A stretch of 64,000 nt of DNA from an uncultured Flavobacteriales bacterium (GTDB taxonomy: Bacteria; Bacteroidota; Bacteroidia; Flavobacteriales_D; Sanyastnellaceae), in assembly GCA_938085425.1 (NCBI GenBank), contig CALKGQ010000014.1, positions 62,001-126,000 on the forward strand, given 5' to 3'. This document shows, piece by piece, positions 54,322 through 64,000 of the stretch (the stretch's first letter is position 1; each line of letters begins with the position of its first letter). The position numbers and the translations under genes are program-made. The notes under the pieces are model-generated. The model had not been told where the DNA came from. It did not search any database and saw nothing but the letters and a program-made list of their open reading frames with translations.

Positions 54322-55533
54322 TCAGTGATTGACTTGGATGACTTTTTGGACCTGTCCACCCGCGGTTCGCACAATGCGGATCGATGGAAAGCCCGGCAAT
54401 GAGGTCTCCCCAGTTCGCCCAAGCACATCCCACTCCCCTGCTGCGGCAGGCTGCTTCACAAGCGGTGCTTTCTCCCCTACGTCCGACACATCCAAAGACC
54501 GCCAGGCCAAAGAGCCCGGCGACACGCCCACAGGGACTGTAGCAATCCATTCGCCCTCAGAAGTTCGGAATTGAACTTCACCGAAGGTCTCATAATCCGT
54601 CACGCCTGTGCACGTCCAGCCAAATTCCGGATGGGAAATCAAGCTGTAAGCTGCAGGGGCGTCGGCGTTGAGAACTTCTCCCTCCCACGCCATGCTCGAG
54701 CCATCGAGCAAACGCAAGCCGCTTTCGCCACTGATTTGGATGGCCAACTTGGTGTCCAAGAATGCGGAGGCGTTGCAACCCGCGGACACACCTTCCAGTG
54801 TCACCGTCTCAATTGCAGAAATGTTGGCGAGATTTACTCGGGAAACCGACGTACTGGACCAGTCACCGTTGTTCACAGTGAAGAGGTTGCCATCCAAGAC
54901 GTGAAGGGCCACGGGGTTCTCCGCACCTTCACCCAAATCCCATTCTTCATAGATTTCCTCTACTGGGTCCCAACAGCCTAAAAGTCCTGCCTCTGCACCA
55001 GGAGCCCAGCCATTGTTGACTGCGATGTACACCTTCCCATCGACCAACCTCACCTCTTGACTTGGCAATGTTGGCCCTTCCTCCGGCGTCAACTCCGCAT
55101 CCAGGCTCAAATCACCACCATCCAACAACACCAAGTAGCTGCTGAGATCCAAAGGTTGCCAAACGTCATCCAGGCCACCTCTCGTGACCACCACGTCTCC
55201 ACCCTCTAGCAAGGTCGCCTCCTGGGCACCGAGAAGCTGGACATCTGCGAGGATTTGACCAGAAACCAAGTCCACCTTCACCACCCTGTTCTCAAGAACC
55301 ACGATGGCAACGTCTCCCATAATTTCTAGATCCGTGGCGTAGCCAACATCTTGAAAAGACAACAGTTCCTGGTAAGAAAATGAGGTCAGGTCTATCCGAC
55401 CAAGACTTGGTGGCGTTTCACTCAGCACCCAAAGTTCATCCTGGGCATTTGCATTCAAATGTAGGAGTGACAAAACGAACATCCACAAGGTGAAAAGCAC
55501 ATTCTGAGCGCGGCGATGATGAAAGTTGGTCAT
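54322..55533 (-). CDS. Secreted propeller-like protein with probable type IX sorting tail
   Basis: A 403-residue exported protein. A signal peptide (LFTLWMFVLSLLHLNANAQ) is followed by repeated blades (DLEIMGDVAIVVLENRVVKVDL, QEVRLVDGKVYIAVNNG, ALHVLDGNLFTVNNG) that suggest a YncE/NHL-like beta-propeller. The last 35-40 residues, EWDVLGRTGETSLPGFPS to GQVQKVIQVNH, resemble the type A C-terminal sorting domain (a DVLGR turn, then a strand pair and a basic end). It is therefore a probable type IX secretion substrate. A TAGTTTTG box ends 4 bases before the ATG. No catalytic residues were recognised. Confidence 0.75.
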   Translation of the reverse strand: MTNFHHRRAQNVLFTLWMFVLSLLHLNANAQDELWVLSETPPSLGRIDLTSFSYQELLSFQDVGYATDLEIMGDVAIVVLENRVVKVDLVSGQILADVQLLGAQEATLLEGGDVVVTRGGLDDVWQPLDLSSYLVLLDGGDLSLDAELTPEEGPTLPSQEVRLVDGKVYIAVNNGWAPGAEAGLLGCWDPVEEIYEEWDLGEGAENPVALHVLDGNLFTVNNGDWSSTSVSRVNLANISAIETVTLEGVSAGCNASAFLDTKLAIQISGESGLRLLDGSSMAWEGEVLNADAPAAYSLISHPEFGWTCTGVTDYETFGEVQFRTSEGEWIATVPVGVSPGSLAWRSLDVSDVGEKAPLVKQPAAAGEWDVLGRTGETSLPGFPSIRIVRTAGGQVQKVIQVNH

Positions 55534-55649: not shown

Positions 55650-55733
55650 TTATTCGTACACGGTTCCCCATGCAATGAGGAAGTCCAACAAGTCTTGTGC
55701 TTGCACTTGGCCATCGCCGTTGAAGTCGGGACA
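55650..55733 (-). other. C-terminal dockerin-like segment of giant protein
   Basis: The last 27 residues, beginning CPDFNGDGQVQAQD, form an EF-hand-like loop (D-x-N-G-D-G) and a hydrophobic helix. A close relative lies about 85-100 residues earlier (DFTGDGVVQLEDLLEFLVAYG). Dockerin type I modules use two such loops for calcium-dependent binding to cohesins. Confidence 0.5.
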
Positions 55734-58700
55734 GACATTGTATGAACAGCTGCTGTCATCCAATGTTGCCAGAGCATTGAAGTTCAATGCCTCACTGTCG
55801 GTGCAACCCAGCCAGACACAAGTGCCCAAGTCGAATGCTGCAGTTGGGTCAAAGTTCGCAGCTGTTGGGTACGTACAGCCTGTTGCATTGACATCCATGT
55901 CCGCAATGCCCATTGCCACGACAGAACAACCGTCCTGAATCCACTCCAGCCCCCATTCTGGACCGCTGGTGCCGTACGCCACAAGGAACTCCAACAAGTC
56001 CTCCAACTGCACCACGCCGTCTCCGGTGAAGTCTGCGCTGACAGGGGTGTTGGTGCACTGACCATCGTTGGTGTTGGCCAATGCATTGTAACTGGTGAAA
56101 TCTGGGCTGATGCAGCCTTCAAATACGCAATTGCCATTGTCATCTGTGGCCAATGGATTGAAATTGGACGCATTGAAGTACGTGCATCCGGACACCTCAT
56201 TGGCATCACAAATGCCATCACCATCTGCATCAAACTCACAGACAGATGGGCAAACACCAGAGGCATCTGGGAAGACACATGAGCCATCGTTAAGAGTGGC
56301 ACCCTCATCATAATTGCATGCCCAAGACACGATGCAACCTGTGCAGCTCTCGAAGTCGCACGTTCCATCGTCTTCTTGCGCCGTGAAGTCGAAGTTGCAC
56401 GCCGTCTGGTTGGTGCAACCCGTGGAAGCGTACTGGCAGGTGCCACTTTCATCAGTGGCATTGGCATTGAAGTTCAAGGCCTCTGGATCAGTACAACCCA
56501 CAACCTCACTTGCGTCACAAACAGAATCACCGTCCGAATCGACCAGACAGTTGCCATTGCAATCTTGACCATTGGAGGCAAACTCGCATGAGCCATCAGG
56601 GTACAGCGCATTGTCATCGTAGTTGCAAGCTGAAGGCGTGACACACCCAAAGCAACCAGTGAAGTCACAGCTGCCATCGTTGACCGTGGCCGTTGGGTTG
56701 TAGTTGCACGCAATGAGCAGGGTGCAACCCATGACATCAAACTGGCATTGCCCGTTGTCCAATGACGCGTCAGGGTCAAAGTTCGATGCCTCGCTGTCCA
56801 TGCAGCCCAGGCAAGTGGCGTACTCACAGCTTCCATCTTCCGTGGTGGCGGACAAGTCGAAGTTGCATGCATTGGCGTTGGTGCAACCGAATACTTGGCA
56901 AGAAGCGTATTCACAGCCACTGTTCACTTGTGCATCTGCGTCAAAGTTGCAAGCAGCCTCATTCATGCAACCCACCTGAGCACACAAGCTGCCATTGGCA
57001 TCGAAGTACATGCAAGGCTCGTCGAGACCGAAGTTGCAAGCCAAGTCGTCCGCACAAGCTTCACCGTCGAACGGCATGCCAAACAGGCAACTGAAGTCAC
57101 AAGCTCCTGGCAGATAGAAATCTGCGGAAGGGTCGAAGTTGCAAGCAAACGGCAGTGTACAACCGCCCACTTCAATGATGCATGTTCCATTGTCATCGGT
57201 GGCAAATGGAGAGTAGTTGCTGGCCGCTGTATCTGTGCAACCCGGAATTTCGAGCTCATCGCAAATGCCGTCACCATCGGCGTCGTTGTTGCAATCACCA
57301 TCACAGTCCACAAATTGGCTTGCAGGATAGGTACAGTCTGCAGGAGCATTCAACGTGGCTGACGGATCAAACGTACAAGCCTCGGGATCTGTGCAACCTG
57401 AACAGCTGTTCAAATCACACAACGCAATGTCCAAGTAGTCAGCTGTGGGCTCAAAGTTGCATGCGAATGGCAAAAGACATCCCGCCACCAAACAGCTCCC
57501 GTCGTCGTCTGTCGCTGCTGGGTTGTAGGCCGGGTTGGAAGGATCTGTACAACCTGCAATTTCGAATTCATCGCAAATGCCGTCTCCATCTTCATCGTTC
57601 AAGCACTCACCATCACAACCGTAGCCATAAGCGGGGAATTCACAGCTTCCATCGTTGAGCGTCGCCTCAGAGTCATAGTTGCATGCCTCTTCGCTCGTAC
57701 ATCCAGAACAGCTGTCAAACTCACAAGCTCCTGCGATTTGGAATTCTGCCGACACATCGTAGTTGCAGGCAAATTCAATGGTACAACCTCCTGTCAAACA
57801 GGATCCGTCGTCCACGTTGGCTTCAGGATTGTAACCAGGATTGTCTGGATCGGTACATCCGCTGACTTCAAGTTCATCACAAATGCCATTGTCGTTGTCA
57901 TCGTTCAAGCAATTGCCATCACAATCGTAACCGTACAATGGGTAGAAACATGACTCATCGTCTTCATTGGCGAAGCTGTCATAGTTGCAAGCTTCTGAAT
58001 CTGTGCAACCAAGGACCTGCAAGACCAAAGTCGCCACTTCGGTGAACAACGTTTGGTTGCCACATGCATCAAGGGCAGTGTAAACGCGCTCCACAGTCAA
58101 TTCATTTGGCAAATCCACCAAGATGGTCTCCTCTACCGACCAGCTGGCCTCGGTGTCGCAGTTGTCGATGACGACCACAAATGGCGCTGCCAACGTATCC
58201 CCCTCTGCCTCGTAAACAATGGAGGTTGATTCAGGAGTGTACGTGAACGTTGGTGCGGTGGTGTCCACGACCTCAATCGTTTGTGTTGCTGAAGTGGCAT
58301 TCCCACAATCGTCGGTGGCGATGTACGTTCTGACAATCGTCATGGACTGTGGACATGAACCAGGAACAATCTCTTCCAACACCTCTACCGTGACCGCACC
58401 ACAAGCGTCAGAAGCAGTGTATTCTGCCGCTGGTGCAGGCTCATCGCATTCAATGGTAGCGTCAGAAGCAATGTCCAACAATGGGGACGTGGTGTCTTGC
58501 TGGGTGATGGTTTGTACGGCTGAATTGGAATTGCCGCATGCATCCACCGCCGTGAAGGTTCTTGTGATGACATATGCGCCGCCACATGCCCCCTGCTCAT
58601 ACACCTCCTCTACCTCCACTGTCACTTCTCCACATTGGTCGGTGGCGGTGGCCATGGTGCCATCAAGGCTCACATTGCATTCAATCAACTGGTCTTCAGG

Positions 58701-61700
58701 AACAAACGTGAATTCTGGAGCAGTCGTATCTGAAACCTCAATGGTTTGGGTTGCACTTGTGGTGTTGCCACATCCGTCGTCTGCTGTGAATGTCCGGACC
58801 AAGGTGAAGGCGTTGGCACAATCACCGGCAATGGTGTCATTCACGACTGTGATGGTGGCCTCTCCACAGTTGTCCGTGGCGGAAGCATCATCGAGCACCA
58901 ACTCATCCGAGCATTCTGCGCTGTAACCTTCGGGGACAAATGTGAAGACTGGAGCCTCCGAATCAGACACTGTGATCGTTTGGACCCCAATGGTCTCGTT
59001 GAAACATTCGTCCAATGCTGTGAAGGTCCGAGTCAGAACGTAGCCTTGTGCACAAGAATAGTCGTACGACTCTTCCAACGTCACCAAAGCCAATCCACAT
59101 GCGTCGCTCGCAAGCGCATCCAAAAGAAGCAGTTCATCGCCACAATCTGCTTCATAGCTCGGTGGCACAAACAGGTCTGGCCCAGTGGTGTCGACCACAG
59201 AAATGATTTGCGTCGCCTCCGCGCTGTTGCCAGCATCATCGGTTGCCGTGAAGGTGCGAATGAGTTCGTACTCATGGGCACAACTCCCCGCAATGGTTGC
59301 GCTGGACACCTCGATGGTGACCTCTCCACAGTTGTCAGAGGCCGTTGCGTCGTCGAAGATCAAGGCATCAGAACACTCGCTCGTGTAGTCCGCGGGCACC
59401 GAAGTGAACTCAGGCGCCGTCGTGTCTTCAACTGTGATCGTCTGCTGTGCCTCCGTGCTGTTCCCAGCATCGTCGGTGGCGGTGAACGTACGCACCACTG
59501 TGTAGTTGCCTGCTGCATCACCTGCAATGGTTTCGCTGGACACCTCGATGGTGACCTCTCCACAGTTGTCAGACGCAGAAGCGTCGTCAAGGATCAAGGC
59601 GTCAGAACACTCGCTCGTGTAGTCCGCGGGCACTGAGGTGAACTCAGGCGCCGTCGTGTCTTCAACTGTGATCGTCTGCTGTGCCTCGCTGCTGTTGCCG
59701 CAAGCATCTGTAGCGGTAAACGTGCGGACAATGCTGTAGTTGCCTGCTGCATCACCTGCGATGGTCTCGCTGGAAACCTCAAGGGTCAACTCAGAACACG
59801 AACGGCTGTGAGAGAATGTCAGATCAGCTCGGGCGTCGTTCACCTGGTCGCCGCCTGGGAAAATCTGGGTGCGGAACTGACCGCTCAAATCACCGTCGGT
59901 GGTCAACTGTGCAACAAGGACGCGCTGGTCGTCTCCACCAAGGCCATTGACGGCCACTGGGGGAACAATGTACCAGCCACTGCCAACACCGTCATTCACC
60001 TCAAAGCTGTTGCCAGACTCAAAGGCGTCCGCCCAAGAACCAGGGATCAACTCCACAGAACCTTCTCCCAAGCCAGGCTCCTGTGTAAGACCAACAGTCA
60101 CATAGCTGTCGAAGGCCAATTCAGGCACAAGATCCAAAGCTCCAGGAGTCAAGTCATTTGAAGTAGCGCCTCCAAAAGCATTTTGATAAAAGCTTGTGGT
60201 CGTGTTCAAAGCAAGGGCAAACTCGTCGTTGCCGGTGACGCTCGTCACTTGGTCCTCTGAAGAAGAAACATCGAGGTAAATGCGGTACGTCTGAAGACCG
60301 GCAAGAACTCCGTCGTCGTGAGAGGCCACAAGCTCAAGGCTCAAACCATATCCCTCCACCGTAGAGGTGAACGCAAAGTCATCTGCGCAAGAAGTGCAAT
60401 TGTCAACGACCGTGGCATCGTCAAACACCAAATCATCGGAGCACTCTGCTGTGTAGTCAGAAGGAATGCTCAATTCTGGTGCGGTCGTGTCTTCTACGAC
60501 AATCGTTTGCTGGGCCGCGCTGCTGTTGCCAGCATCGTCGGTGGCGGTGAACGTGCGCACCACTGTGTAGTTGCCTTCGCAGTCGCCGGCAATGGTTTCG
60601 CTAGAAACTTCAATGATGACCTCACCACAGTTGTCAGATGCTGTGGCGTCGTCAAGGATCAAGGCGTCAGAACACTCGCTCGTGTAGTCCGCAGGCACTG
60701 AGGTGAACTCAGGAGCCGTCGTGTCTTCCACGGTGATGGTCTGCTGTGCCTCGCTGCTGTTGCCGCATAGATCGGTGGCGACAAAGGTCCGCACCAAAGT
60801 GTAGTTGCCCGCTGCGTCACCTGCAATGGTTTCGCTGGACACCTCAATGGTGACCTCTCCACAGTTGTCAGATGCTGAAGCGTCGTCAAGAATCAATTCG
60901 TCAGAACATTCGCTGGTATAGTCAGAAGGCACCGACAAAAACTCGGGAGCTACAATGTCCTGCACCTGAATGGAATAGACATAGCTGGCGGATCCACCGG
61001 CACAATTGGTCACCGTCAAGGTTCTCTCAATCGAGTAATTCCCTGGGCAATCTCCCTCAGACACGTTGTCTTCGACGAGTTCAACCACAAGGTCATCGGA
61101 GCATCCCAAAGCTTCTGCCGTAGCAGACGCATAAGACACCAAAAAATCAGACCCTGTGGGCATCTCAATGTCGTCTTCACATGACACCACCTCATCTGCT
61201 GGACCAGCTTCGATGATGGGGCACGCAAAGGCTCCAAGGGGAGCTTGGGCAAAGGTCAGGTCTGGGCGTATGTCATTCACCTGATCACCTTCTGGGAAGA
61301 TTTGGGTTCGGAAAGAACCCGAGATCTGACCGTCTGTGGTCAATTGAGCCACCAACACCCGATTGTCATCGCCAGCAACGCCATTCAACCCACCGGGAGG
61401 AATGATGAACCATCCACTGCCCAAACCATCGTTGACCACGATGCTGCTTCCAGACTCAAATTCTTCAATCCAAACGCCAGGGATCAATTGGGTCTCTCCC
61501 TCCGACACATCGTCACTGCTTGTCGCTCCAATGGTGACCCAAGAGTCGTAAGCCGCATCGGGCGCCACGACCATCATGGCAGGACTGATGTTGCTTCCTA
61601 GACAACCGCCAAACACGTTCTGATAAAACGTGGTTGTGGTGGCCAATTCCAAGGGGAATTCATCGCTTCCTGTCACCGCAGTCAACACATCTTCTGAAGA

Positions 61701-64000
61701 AGTCATGGTGACATAGACGCGGTAAGTACTCAACCCCGCCAAGGAACCCTCCGCATGCGTTTGGACCAGCTCGATGTCCACACCGTATCCAGCTTCTGAG
61801 GAAGTGAAGGTGTCGTAACCACAGCAATAATCGCAAGAGCCGTCATCCACTGCCGCCACTTCGTCATAGTTGCAGGCTTGGCTGTCAGTGCAACCCGCCT
61901 CCTCGATGTCGCAAACACCGTTTTCGTTGACATCGTCGCACACCCCATCACAATTGAATCCCGGGTCTGCAAATTCACAAGAGCCATCATCGTAGGACGC
62001 ATCCGCATCAAAATTGCAAGCCTGAACGTCCAAACATCCACAAGCATTGGTGCCGCAGGAGCAATACTCACATGAACCGTCGAGGACATTCACCTCTGCG
62101 TCATAGTTGCAAGCTGCATCGTCTGAACATCCTTCGTACACCAAAGTAAGGCTGTACAGTTCGCTCACTTCAAGCTCATTGCCGCACGCATCTGTGATGC
62201 TGTATGTCCTCAGAATGGTCTGCGCAGCATTCGAAGAAGACAACGCTTCGTCTGAATAGTACCAAACCGGAGCATCGTCACAATTGTCCACCAATGTCAA
62301 GTCCGCTTCTGGCAAGGTCTCTCCCAGAAGGGCGTTGATTTCAATGGCGCAATCTTCAGGGGTTTCGCATCCTGCGAATCCAGCCTCAATGGTGGGTGCC
62401 TCGTCGTCCACAAAAGTCACTTTTTGCAAAGAGGTTGAGGAATTCCCACAGGCATCTGTGGCTGTAAACAAACGCTCCACAGTCCGCTCTTGCGGGCAGT
62501 CTCCATTGACCTCTGTCTCCTCCACCACGATGGTCACATTCGAACAATTGTCGAATGCCTCTGGCAAATCTGACGGCACAACGTCATCACAACCCAGAGT
62601 CAAATCAGACAAAGCTGTGATGATGGGAGCTTCATTGTCCATCACCTGGATACTCTGCTCTCCCGTCGTTTCGTTCAAACAAGGATCTGTCGCGAGGAAG
62701 GATCGTACGATCGTGTAATTGCCCTCGCAGGCACCTGGGACGATTTCTGTAGAAATCTCAATGGACACTTCGCCGCAGTCGTCTTGACCAAATGCTTCAC
62801 CGAGATCAGCAGTGTCTACGTCTTCACAAAGGATGACCAAGTCTGAAGGCACAAACAACTCCGGAGACACTGTGTCCACGACAATGATAATTTGCTGACG
62901 GGTCCGGCTGTACCCAGAACAGTCTGAGGCCGTCCAACTCCTAAAGAGTGTGTAGTCATGCTCACATACGCCGTCAATTCGGGTCTCTCCAGCAAACACA
63001 ACCACTGGTGAAGACTGCGTTTCGTAGCAGTCGTTCGCATTGAATGTGGCCTCAAAAGAGGGGGCGAACGGAGACACAATGGCCTCCACCACGGCCTCTC
63101 CGGCAAGGGGAACCTGCCATGCTTGAAGGGTTACATCGGATGGGAAGCTTGTGAAAATGGGCTTGAGCGAGTTGCCTTCACAATCGAAATTGGCCGCCGC
63201 GAAGCTGCAGTTCCCCGGATCTGTCGCCGAAGGGTCAAAGTTGCAGGCAGAGTCGTCTTGACAGCCAACAATCTCGAAAGGATCACAAACTCCATCTCCG
63301 TCTGCGTCCAACAAGCATTCGCCATCACAATCGTATCCGAATGCAGGGAATTCACAAGACTCGTCGGCGTACAATGCCGAGGCATCATAATTGCAGGCCG
63401 ACTCTTGCAAACAACCTGCACAAGAAGTGAATTCACAGGTGCCGTCTTCGTTCGTGGCCAGCACGTCGAAGTTGCAAGCCTCAGGGTCCGTGCAGCCAGC
63501 CACAGGCTCGATGCATGAACCATCGTCGTCCGTCGCGACATCACTGTAGTTGAGAGCTGTTTCCGAAGTGCAACCGGGAATTTCATCTCCATCACAAACG
63601 TCATCTCCATCCGCATCTTCCAAACAATTCCCCTCACAATCGCGGCCAGCATCTGGGTACGAACAAGTCCCATCGTTGACCTGAGCCTCCATGTCGTAGT
63701 TGCAAGCCGTCAAATCCGTGCAGCCTGTGGCCAAACATGAAATGAAATCACATGAGCTGTCGTCGCTGTTGGCGTTCACGTCGAAGTTGCACGCCTGAGG
63801 GTTGGTGCAGCCTTCAATGGGATTGCAGCTTCCATCGTCAATGGTGGCAGTCTCGTCAAAATTGTCCGCGAATTCATTGGTGCAGCCTGCACAAGACGTG
63901 AATTCACAAGATCCATCGTTGACCTCGGCCAAAACATCGAAGTTGCAGGCATCCGCCAAAGTGCAACCTTGCGCCAAGCATGAAAGATAATCGCATGAAC
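55650..64000 (-). CDS. Giant secreted repeat protein (GCTDxxACNYD and HYR-like repeats), N-terminus outside window
   Basis: At least 2,783 residues; the frame stays open to the right edge, so the true start lies beyond 64000. From N- to C-terminus: eight Cys-rich repeats of the GCTDxxACNYDxxAxxDDGSC type, four HYR-like domains, three repeats, an unrecognised domain, eleven HYR-like domains (the fourth split by a second copy of that domain), then 22 repeats. Some repeats carry a CDGxCLNDxDGDGICDxxE extension, a calcium-binding pattern. Two dockerin-like EF-hand segments lie near the end (DFTGDGVVQLEDLLEF and DFNGDGQVQAQDLLDF), and the second is the C-terminus. No type A or B type IX signal is seen. 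It is probably a cell-surface or secreted adhesin, but no function is claimed. No enzymatic motif was found. Confidence 0.85.
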   Translation of the reverse strand, partial: SCDYLSCLAQGCTLADACNFDVLAEVNDGSCEFTSCAGCTNEFADNFDETATIDDGSCNPIEGCTNPQACNFDVNANSDDSSCDFISCLATGCTDLTACNYDMEAQVNDGTCSYPDAGRDCEGNCLEDADGDDVCDGDEIPGCTSETALNYSDVATDDDGSCIEPVAGCTDPEACNFDVLATNEDGTCEFTSCAGCLQESACNYDASALYADESCEFPAFGYDCDGECLLDADGDGVCDPFEIVGCQDDSACNFDPSATDPGNCSFAAANFDCEGNSLKPIFTSFPSDVTLQAWQVPLAGEAVVEAIVSPFAPSFEATFNANDCYETQSSPVVVFAGETRIDGVCEHDYTLFRSWTASDCSGYSRTRQQIIIVVDTVSPELFVPSDLVILCEDVDTADLGEAFGQDDCGEVSIEISTEIVPGACEGNYTIVRSFLATDPCLNETTGEQSIQVMDNEAPIITALSDLTLGCDDVVPSDLPEAFDNCSNVTIVVEETEVNGDCPQERTVERLFTATDACGNSSTSLQKVTFVDDEAPTIEAGFAGCETPEDCAIEINALLGETLPEADLTLVDNCDDAPVWYYSDEALSSSNAAQTILRTYSITDACGNELEVSELYSLTLVYEGCSDDAACNYDAEVNVLDGSCEYCSCGTNACGCLDVQACNFDADASYDDGSCEFADPGFNCDGVCDDVNENGVCDIEEAGCTDSQACNYDEVAAVDDGSCDYCCGYDTFTSSEAGYGVDIELVQTHAEGSLAGLSTYRVYVTMTSSEDVLTAVTGSDEFPLELATTTTFYQNVFGGCLGSNISPAMMVVAPDAAYDSWVTIGATSSDDVSEGETQLIPGVWIEEFESGSSIVVNDGLGSGWFIIPPGGLNGVAGDDNRVLVAQLTTDGQISGSFRTQIFPEGDQVNDIRPDLTFAQAPLGAFACPIIEAGPADEVVSCEDDIEMPTGSDFLVSYASATAEALGCSDDLVVELVEDNVSEGDCPGNYSIERTLTVTNCAGGSASYVYSIQVQDIVAPEFLSVPSDYTSECSDELILDDASASDNCGEVTIEVSSETIAGDAAGNYTLVRTFVATDLCGNSSEAQQTITVEDTTAPEFTSVPADYTSECSDALILDDATASDNCGEVIIEVSSETIAGDCEGNYTVVRTFTATDDAGNSSAAQQTIVVEDTTAPELSIPSDYTAECSDDLVFDDATVVDNCTSCADDFAFTSTVEGYGLSLELVASHDDGVLAGLQTYRIYLDVSSSEDQVTSVTGNDEFALALNTTTSFYQNAFGGATSNDLTPGALDLVPELAFDSYVTVGLTQEPGLGEGSVELIPGSWADAFESGNSFEVNDGVGSGWYIVPPVAVNGLGGDDQRVLVAQLTTDGDLSGQFRTQIFPGGDQVNDARADLTFSHSRSCSELTLEVSSETIAGDAAGNYSIVRTFTATDACGNSSEAQQTITVEDTTAPEFTSVPADYTSECSDALILDDASASDNCGEVTIEVSSETIAGDAAGNYTVVRTFTATDDAGNSTEAQQTITVEDTTAPEFTSVPADYTSECSDALIFDDATASDNCGEVTIEVSSATIAGSCAHEYELIRTFTATDDAGNSAEATQIISVVDTTGPDLFVPPSYEADCGDELLLLDALASDACGLALVTLEESYDYSCAQGYVLTRTFTALDECFNETIGVQTITVSDSEAPVFTFVPEGYSAECSDELVLDDASATDNCGEATITVVNDTIAGDCANAFTLVRTFTADDGCGNTTSATQTIEVSDTTAPEFTFVPEDQLIECNVSLDGTMATATDQCGEVTVEVEEVYEQGACGGAYVITRTFTAVDACGNSNSAVQTITQQDTTSPLLDIASDATIECDEPAPAAEYTASDACGAVTVEVLEEIVPGSCPQSMTIVRTYIATDDCGNATSATQTIEVVDTTAPTFTYTPESTSIVYEAEGDTLAAPFVVVIDNCDTEASWSVEETILVDLPNELTVERVYTALDACGNQTLFTEVATLVLQVLGCTDSEACNYDSFANEDDESCFYPLYGYDCDGNCLNDDNDNGICDELEVSGCTDPDNPGYNPEANVDDGSCLTGGCTIEFACNYDVSAEFQIAGACEFDSCSGCTSEEACNYDSEATLNDGSCEFPAYGYGCDGECLNDEDGDGICDEFEIAGCTDPSNPAYNPAATDDDGSCLVAGCLLPFACNFEPTADYLDIALCDLNSCSGCTDPEACTFDPSATLNAPADCTYPASQFVDCDGDCNNDADGDGICDELEIPGCTDTAASNYSPFATDDNGTCIIEVGGCTLPFACNFDPSADFYLPGACDFSCLFGMPFDGEACADDLACNFGLDEPCMYFDANGSLCAQVGCMNEAACNFDADAQVNSGCEYASCQVFGCTNANACNFDLSATTEDGSCEYATCLGCMDSEASNFDPDASLDNGQCQFDVMGCTLLIACNYNPTATVNDGSCDFTGCFGCVTPSACNYDDNALYPDGSCEFASNGQDCNGNCLVDSDGDSVCDASEVVGCTDPEALNFNANATDESGTCQYASTGCTNQTACNFDFTAQEDDGTCDFESCTGCIVSWACNYDEGATLNDGSCVFPDASGVCPSVCEFDADGDGICDANEVSGCTYFNASNFNPLATDDNGNCVFEGCISPDFTSYNALANTNDGQCTNTPVSADFTGDGVVQLEDLLEFLVAYGTSGPEWGLEWIQDGCSVVAMGIADMDVNATGCTYPTAANFDPTAAFDLGTCVWLGCTDSEALNFNALATLDDSSCSYNVCPDFNGDGQVQAQDLLDFLIAWGTVYE
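55734..58012 (-). repeat. Cys-rich repeat block C (22 units)
   Basis: Twenty-two repeats of about 22-50 residues, each starting GC(T/M/L/I) and including ACN(Y/F)D or a variant and a DGSC-like end. Roughly every third unit has the DxDGDGxCD extension. The first dockerin-like segment is inside unit 20. Confidence 0.85.
58013..61235 (-). repeat. HYR-like domain array (11 units) of giant protein
   Basis: Eleven HYR-like domains of about 78 residues with the order PADYTSECSD, DNCGEVTIEVSS, GNYTVVRTFTATD, QTITVEDTTAPE. Several copies are nearly identical in DNA: a TCAGAACACTCGCTCGTGTA block recurs at 59368, 59602 (234 bases, one unit) and 60667. Confidence 0.85.
59800..60395 (-). other. Unrecognised ~195-residue domain, copy 2, inserted in an HYR-like unit
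   Basis: Begins after DDATVVDNCTSC and ends before SCSELTLEVSS, so it splits an HYR-like domain at its conserved DNC loop. Core patterns shared with copy 1: GLQTYRIYLDVSSSED, FYQNAFGG, SYVTVGL, GVGSGWYIVPP, DDQRVLVAQLTTDG, FRTQIFPGGDQVND. Confidence 0.75.
61240..61818 (-). other. Unrecognised ~195-residue domain, copy 1
   Basis: Between a Cys-rich repeat (ending DYCCG) and the start of the HYR-like array. It shares GLSTYRVYVTMTSSED, FYQNVFGG, SWVTIGA, GLGSGWFIIPPGGLNG, DDNRVLVAQLTTDG and FRTQIFPEGDQVND with copy 2. Confidence 0.75.
61820..62140 (-). repeat. Cys-rich repeat block B (3 units)
   Basis: Three GCxDxxACNYD-type repeats, one with a calcium-binding-like extension (DVNENGVCDIEEA), linking two HYR-like arrays. 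Confidence 0.8.
62140..63160 (-). repeat. First HYR-like array (4 units)
   Basis: Four more divergent HYR-like domains (FVPSDLVILCEDVD, ITALSDLTLGCDD and others). The first and last units lack parts of the consensus. Confidence 0.7.
63160..64000 (-). repeat. Cys-rich repeat block A (8 units seen, continues past edge)
   Basis: Eight GCTDxxACNYD-type repeats in the N-terminal part of what is visible; the frame continues to the right edge with the same composition (CDYLSCLAQGCT). Confidence 0.8.

Follow-up and report, generated by a model that had tools for sequence, protein, structure and literature searches.

A giant Cys-repeat and HYR protein of a Flavobacteriales bacterium ends in a dockerin-like tail, a putative alternative to the T9SS type A tail

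The window analyzed here, by which we mean the whole stretch of 64,000 nucleotides (G000:C14:62001-126000), comes from a genome of 2,069,661 bases (2.07 Mb) in 56 contigs, and one giant minus-strand gene reaches its edge. The frame (55650..63998, minus strand; 2,782 codons) is open up to that edge, past which the contig goes on, and the ATG was found at L006:9212, corresponding to window position 64211, 211 bases outside. The sequence-only reading of this DNA had looked to a neighboring contig for the 5' end, which lies on the same contig and completes a full-length protein of 2,853 aa, encoded by one uninterrupted frame and starting with a signal peptide (MRISLSILLLFLSNAFVAQ). The protein contains 194 Cys, 321 Asp, 211 Glu, 30 Arg, and 2 Lys residues, which sets 532 acidic residues (Asp+Glu) against 32 basic ones (Lys+Arg). 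Downstream of it lies a 403-aa ORF (window 54322-55533, minus strand) that starts like a signal peptide and is unmatched in Pfam. Just upstream (L006:9412-18022), the order moving away from the target is a small ORF resembling RRM-type RNA-binding proteins, an M43 peptidase with Cys repeats and an EF-hand tail of the kind described below (EF-tailed), and, farther out, a subtilase-like protein with a T9SS-type tail (CTD-tailed), orthologues of which in L072-L074 retain the CTD. The features of the gene are as follows.

55650..64000 (within the window), minus strand: giant protein coding sequence; stop 55650-55652, start 64211 (L006:9212); supported by codon-position divergence from orthologues
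63177..64000, minus strand: N-terminal Cys-repeat block, residues 24-345; pattern count, the first repeats lying outside the window
62169..63011, minus strand: HYR-like array 1, residues 401-681; pattern count and PF23237
61827..62132, minus strand: Cys-repeat block 2, residues 694-795; pattern count
61224..61820, minus strand: D190 copy 1, residues 798-996; AlphaFold pLDDT 92.6, pTM 0.89, unmatched in Pfam
60390..61109, minus strand: HYR-like array 2, residues 1035-1274; pattern count
59787..60386, minus strand: D190 copy 2, residues 1276-1475; 56% identity to copy 1
58047..59819, minus strand: HYR-like array 3, residues 1465-2055; pattern count
55746..58010, minus strand: C-terminal Cys-repeat block, residues 2068-2822; holds most of the DxDxDG sites
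55968..56036, minus strand: internal EF-hand module; tail-profile match about 105 aa from the protein end
55653..55733, minus strand: terminal EF-hand/dockerin-like tail, CPDFNGDGQVQAQDLLDFLIAWGTVYE; tail profile, E 8.8e-14, related to dockerins

Orthologues of the target in five other assemblies (L071-L075) differ from it mainly at the third codon position: over aligned codons, the differences at positions 1/2/3 are about 0.24/0.19/0.59 for L071-L074 and 0.35/0.29/0.70 for L075. This bias shows that the frame is real and under protein-level selection, and, together with the existence of the orthologues, it rules out a frameshift or assembly artefact. The sequence-only reading had staked itself on two points, an unbroken frame and the lack of a match to an intracellular family; the frame is intact, and no such family was matched.

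The repeat content proved to be close to what had been described. Cys-rich repeats number 33 by a loose pattern and 31 by a strict one in the whole protein, about 29-31 of these falling inside the window, where 33 or more had been counted. HYR-like units were matched 16 times, 12 times over the full length, where about 15 had been estimated, and HYR_4C (PF23237) is matched in 10 stretches at 154.5 bits, against a Pfam gathering cut-off of 27, which makes the protein a member of that family. The DxDGDGxCD pattern ascribed to many of the repeats is present, though "many" was generous, as we count 8 calcium-like sites of the DxDxDG type; searched up to E = 1, the segments that carry the pattern did not match the thrombospondin type 3 repeat (PF02412). 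A Pfam search of the target found no enzymatic domain, as had been stated. Structure prediction for a repeat and a search for paralogues had both been suggested earlier. The AlphaFold model of one Cys-repeat stretch from the N-terminal block is confident (pLDDT 92.9, pTM 0.62) and has hardly any regular secondary structure, as would be expected for a module held together by disulfides, and Foldseek found no fold match to it in the PDB. Paralogues occur throughout the same genome. Several Cys-repeat genes are cut by contig ends (e.g., on contigs C4, C7, C13, C31, C42, and C28), so the assembly probably fails at repeat arrays and the genome would hold at least as many paralogues as were counted.

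Two D190 domains, the internal EF module, and the terminal EF/dockerin-like module had all been missed. D190, a domain of ~190 aa, is neither HYR nor Cys repeat, and its two copies in the target share 56% identity. Its AlphaFold model, built from 70 sequences, is confident and beta-rich (pLDDT 92.6, pTM 0.89); the domain has no match in Pfam, nothing better than E = 0.34 among PDB sequences, and nothing among viral contigs. About 30 copies are spread across many secreted proteins of this genome, EF-tailed as well as CTD-tailed, and relatives occur at 42 loci in other assemblies, mostly labelled Flavobacteriales or Crocinitomicaceae. D190 is often the first domain past the signal peptide; copies were also seen at L051, L055, L056, and L071-L112, and other families of the same order have weaker matches.

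The C-terminus of the target is an EF-hand/dockerin-like calcium-loop module, and a paralogue (L010) likewise has two well-separated EF modules. Genome-wide, the tail-module profile has 80 matches, and their surroundings show that 42 distinct ORFs terminate in the module, 0-4 residues ahead of the stop codon. The layout varies, some ORFs carrying a tandem pair and others, about half of the total with the target among them, a single module, and the modules are bracketed by Cys in nearly every case. The best PDB match of the tandem tails is a dockerin (2y3n_B, E = 8.8e-7). Against the type I dockerin family (PF00404; cut-off 22.9), tandem tails of paralogues score 22.6 and 23.6 bits, and the target is unmatched even at E up to 1. 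The GC-type dockerin model NF041540 is matched by 20 of the 22 tandem tails (best E 1.7e-9), of which those checked lie mostly below its cut-off of 29, with one at 31.1 bits; the single module of the target scores 14.8 bits (E 0.029), under the same cut-off. Judged by sequence, the target tail is thus a dockerin-like variant of the GC-type dockerin rather than a passing member.

This tail bears on two other views of the protein. The earlier proposal, a secreted surface or fibre protein rich in calcium sites and disulfides, agrees with the signal peptide, the 194 Cys, the acidity, HYR_4C, and the paralogues, and leaves the tail and D190 out of account. If the target were a giant adhesin or stiff fibre whose C-terminus is nothing special, the HYR_4C and Cys-repeat arrays, the signal peptide, the size, and the acidity would all fit; we consider this possible but doubtful, since the tail recurs on about 42 proteins, which include many enzymes, so that the C-terminus is not incidental. 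Alternatively, the terminal EF module could be a mere calcium-binding end cap that lends stability to extracellular proteins without playing any part in targeting. Such proteins often contain DxDxDG loops, of which the target has 8 others, and each tail module is Cys-bracketed; a stability module, however, would have no need to lie within 0-4 residues of the stop codon in some 42 unrelated proteins, nor would it be expected to be missing from all 44 CTD-tailed proteins examined, and we regard the end cap as unlikely.

The cargo of the tail comprises peptidases (reprolysin, pappalysin, subtilisin, and trypsin-like) as well as VCPO-like proteins, arylsulfotransferases, lysyl oxidase, an esterase, ASPIC/UnbV proteins, and Cys-repeat giants. 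C-terminal T9SS tails are known export tags of Bacteroidota, and the present genome encodes SprA, three PorV-family matches, and 46-49 type A CTD proteins. Searched against the whole NCBIfam library, the target has no TIGR04183 or TIGR04131 match at E up to 1 and hence carries neither a type A nor a type B tail. As mutual exclusion at the extreme protein end is partly true by construction, we rely on two other observations: (i) EF modules occur nowhere in CTD-tailed proteins (0/44), and (ii) the genome-wide lists of EF-tail and CTD ORFs have zero overlap. The 76 EF-tailed proteins hold 108 modules, of which 107 either lie at the terminus or form a tandem with one that does. The same cargo is found with either tail within this genome, in subtilases (67% identity over 435 aa), M43 peptidases (49% over 485 aa), and D190 proteins (71.5% over 586 aa). 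Signal-peptide-like N-termini are present in 52/70 EF-tailed and 23/25 CTD-tailed proteins, compared with 67/269 control ORFs. Both kinds of protein are also Lys-poor (about 0.65% versus 3.15% in control ORFs) and Asp-rich in G000 and L071-L112; the scarcity of lysine in the target (2 Lys in 2,853 residues) was considered as a peculiarity of that protein and rejected, EF- and CTD-tailed proteins being alike in this respect.

A survey of 100 genomes of the order (25 of the same family, 75 of other families) revealed that the EF tail is present in 25/25 own-family genomes, with 1 to at least 83 matches each, while the genomes of other families have 0-3 copies each. When only the family genomes no larger than 2.9 Mb are considered (n = 14), the EF count falls steeply as the CTD count rises (rho -0.91; genus means, -0.95, n = 9), a correlation among related genomes in which some counts are lower bounds. 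Over all 25 family genomes, with no size correction, the relation is absent (rho -0.12), and the CTD counts of the larger genomes are mostly lower bounds and hence uninformative. Genomes with more D190 copies also tend to have more EF tails (rho 0.68, n = 25; genus means, 0.71, n = 16), and the p-values of the tail and D190 correlations are optimistic, since the genomes share ancestry and tandem tails are counted twice. EF-rich genomes do not have a larger number of PorV-family genes.

The pairing of paralogous cargo with either tail and the inverse abundance in small genomes would also fit a tail that adds to the sorting signals of the T9SS, one that the SprA translocon reads in the manner of type A, B, or C CTDs, its cargo crossing the outer membrane. 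The genome has the SprA and PorV-family proteins for this, and a type C CTD unlike types A and B has already been described (PMC10202324), so that the T9SS accepts dissimilar signals; how it recognizes them is an open question (PMC10202324). The tail, on the other hand, is a helical EF module of 27-55 aa that is dissimilar to CTDs, EF-rich genomes have no extra PorV-type shuttle, and we found no direct tie between the tail and any T9SS gene. We therefore rate this reading as a less likely one, if by no means far-fetched.

We identified no receptor, sortase, or shuttle for the EF tail. The sole receptor candidate that we can name is D190, since Foldseek searches with its model keep retrieving type II cohesins (1qzn, 3fnk, 4u3s, 4fl4, 2y3n, and others), and no identity as a cohesin is claimed for it: all of these matches fall short of significance (E no better than 0.06, TM about 0.33-0.43), an unrelated (viral) library gives similar E-values, which thus represent background, and a profile comparison with only four cohesin sequences gave no support. 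Cohesin PF00963 has no match in this genome; across 33 genomes searched, it is found above the cut-off in 4/25 of the same family and 3/8 others, as single matches (G034, G037, G047, G001, G063, G069, and G003; 7/33). It is nevertheless conceivable that EF tails dock into D190, with the D190 giants, CTD- or EF-tailed, acting as scaffolds for EF-tailed enzymes. Such an assembly would be consistent with the match of tandem tails to solved dockerins, the recurrence of type II cohesins in the Foldseek list, the covariation of D190 and EF-tail counts, and the occurrence of D190 in proteins with either tail. The background-level structural matches, the unsupportive profile comparison, the missing PF00963, and two genomes (G026 and G072) that are rich in D190 and poor in EF tails argue against it, and we judge it improbable. 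Extended to the whole family, the idea becomes one of a second, dockerin-type display beside the T9SS, in which about 42 tailed enzymes and giants would dock in Ca2+ into D190 domains on giant scaffolds such as the target, a cellulosome-like assembly of marine Bacteroidota that lacks classical cohesins, and for this we see very little likelihood.

The explanation that we prefer, with modest confidence, is that the tail acts as an address tag replacing the type A CTD on about 42 proteins and that the giant is a surface protein bearing this tag and stiffened by Ca2+ and disulfides. The protein, presumably exported by Sec, is built of Cys units that disulfides and calcium would stabilize, HYR beta-sandwiches, and two D190 beta-domains; it presumably binds Ca2+, its Cys residues probably form disulfides, and a location at the cell surface seems likely. 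As a general address tag standing in place of the T9SS type A tail, the EF-hand tail would most likely direct its cargo, enzymes and giant surface proteins alike, to the cell surface or extracellular matrix, or retain it there.

Taken singly, the HYR domains, the Cys repeats, and the GC-type dockerin tails are already known or named. The open-licence literature yielded no description of a system of HYR and Cys-rich repeats, nor of dockerin tails together with the T9SS, and within it we met no earlier account of D190 or of such tails standing in for the T9SS tail on the same cargo on a large scale and throughout a family. The dockerin-like tail is about as frequent here as the T9SS tail and sits on paralogues of the same enzymes; these features, together with the inverse abundance, make the function of GC-type dockerin tails testable through natural tail-swap pairs. 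The prediction of secreted proteins in these bacteria would change as a result.

Several known systems invite comparison. With the HYR_4C proteins (PF23237), the target shares HYR-like units above the Pfam cut-off, but it intersperses them with Cys-repeat blocks and D190 domains. The Cys repeat itself comes close to a motif in the EGF-like segment of perforin-2/MPEG1 (PDB 6u23/6sb3; GCTDxxSxNFxxxANxDDGSC), a weak likeness that is not significant (E 0.07), and in the target such repeats form arrays. T9SS type A substrates (TIGR04183) have cargo kinds, Sec signal peptides, and paralogues in common with the EF-tailed proteins, whereas the target has no type A tail, and EF and CTD never occur together here. 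GC-type dockerin domain-anchored proteins (NF041540) resemble the tails described here in length, tandem layout, and C-terminal position, yet most of the tails fall below the cut-off of 29, and single-module tails, that of the target included, make up about half; anchoring, stated in the NCBI name, is a putative function. Finally, as in type I dockerin (PF00404) and cellulosomal systems, tandem EF loops are found on many enzymes and on giant multidomain proteins, whereas the tails described here are Cys-bracketed and often single, and their cargo consists not of cellulases but of peptidases, VCPO-like proteins, arylsulfotransferases, and others.
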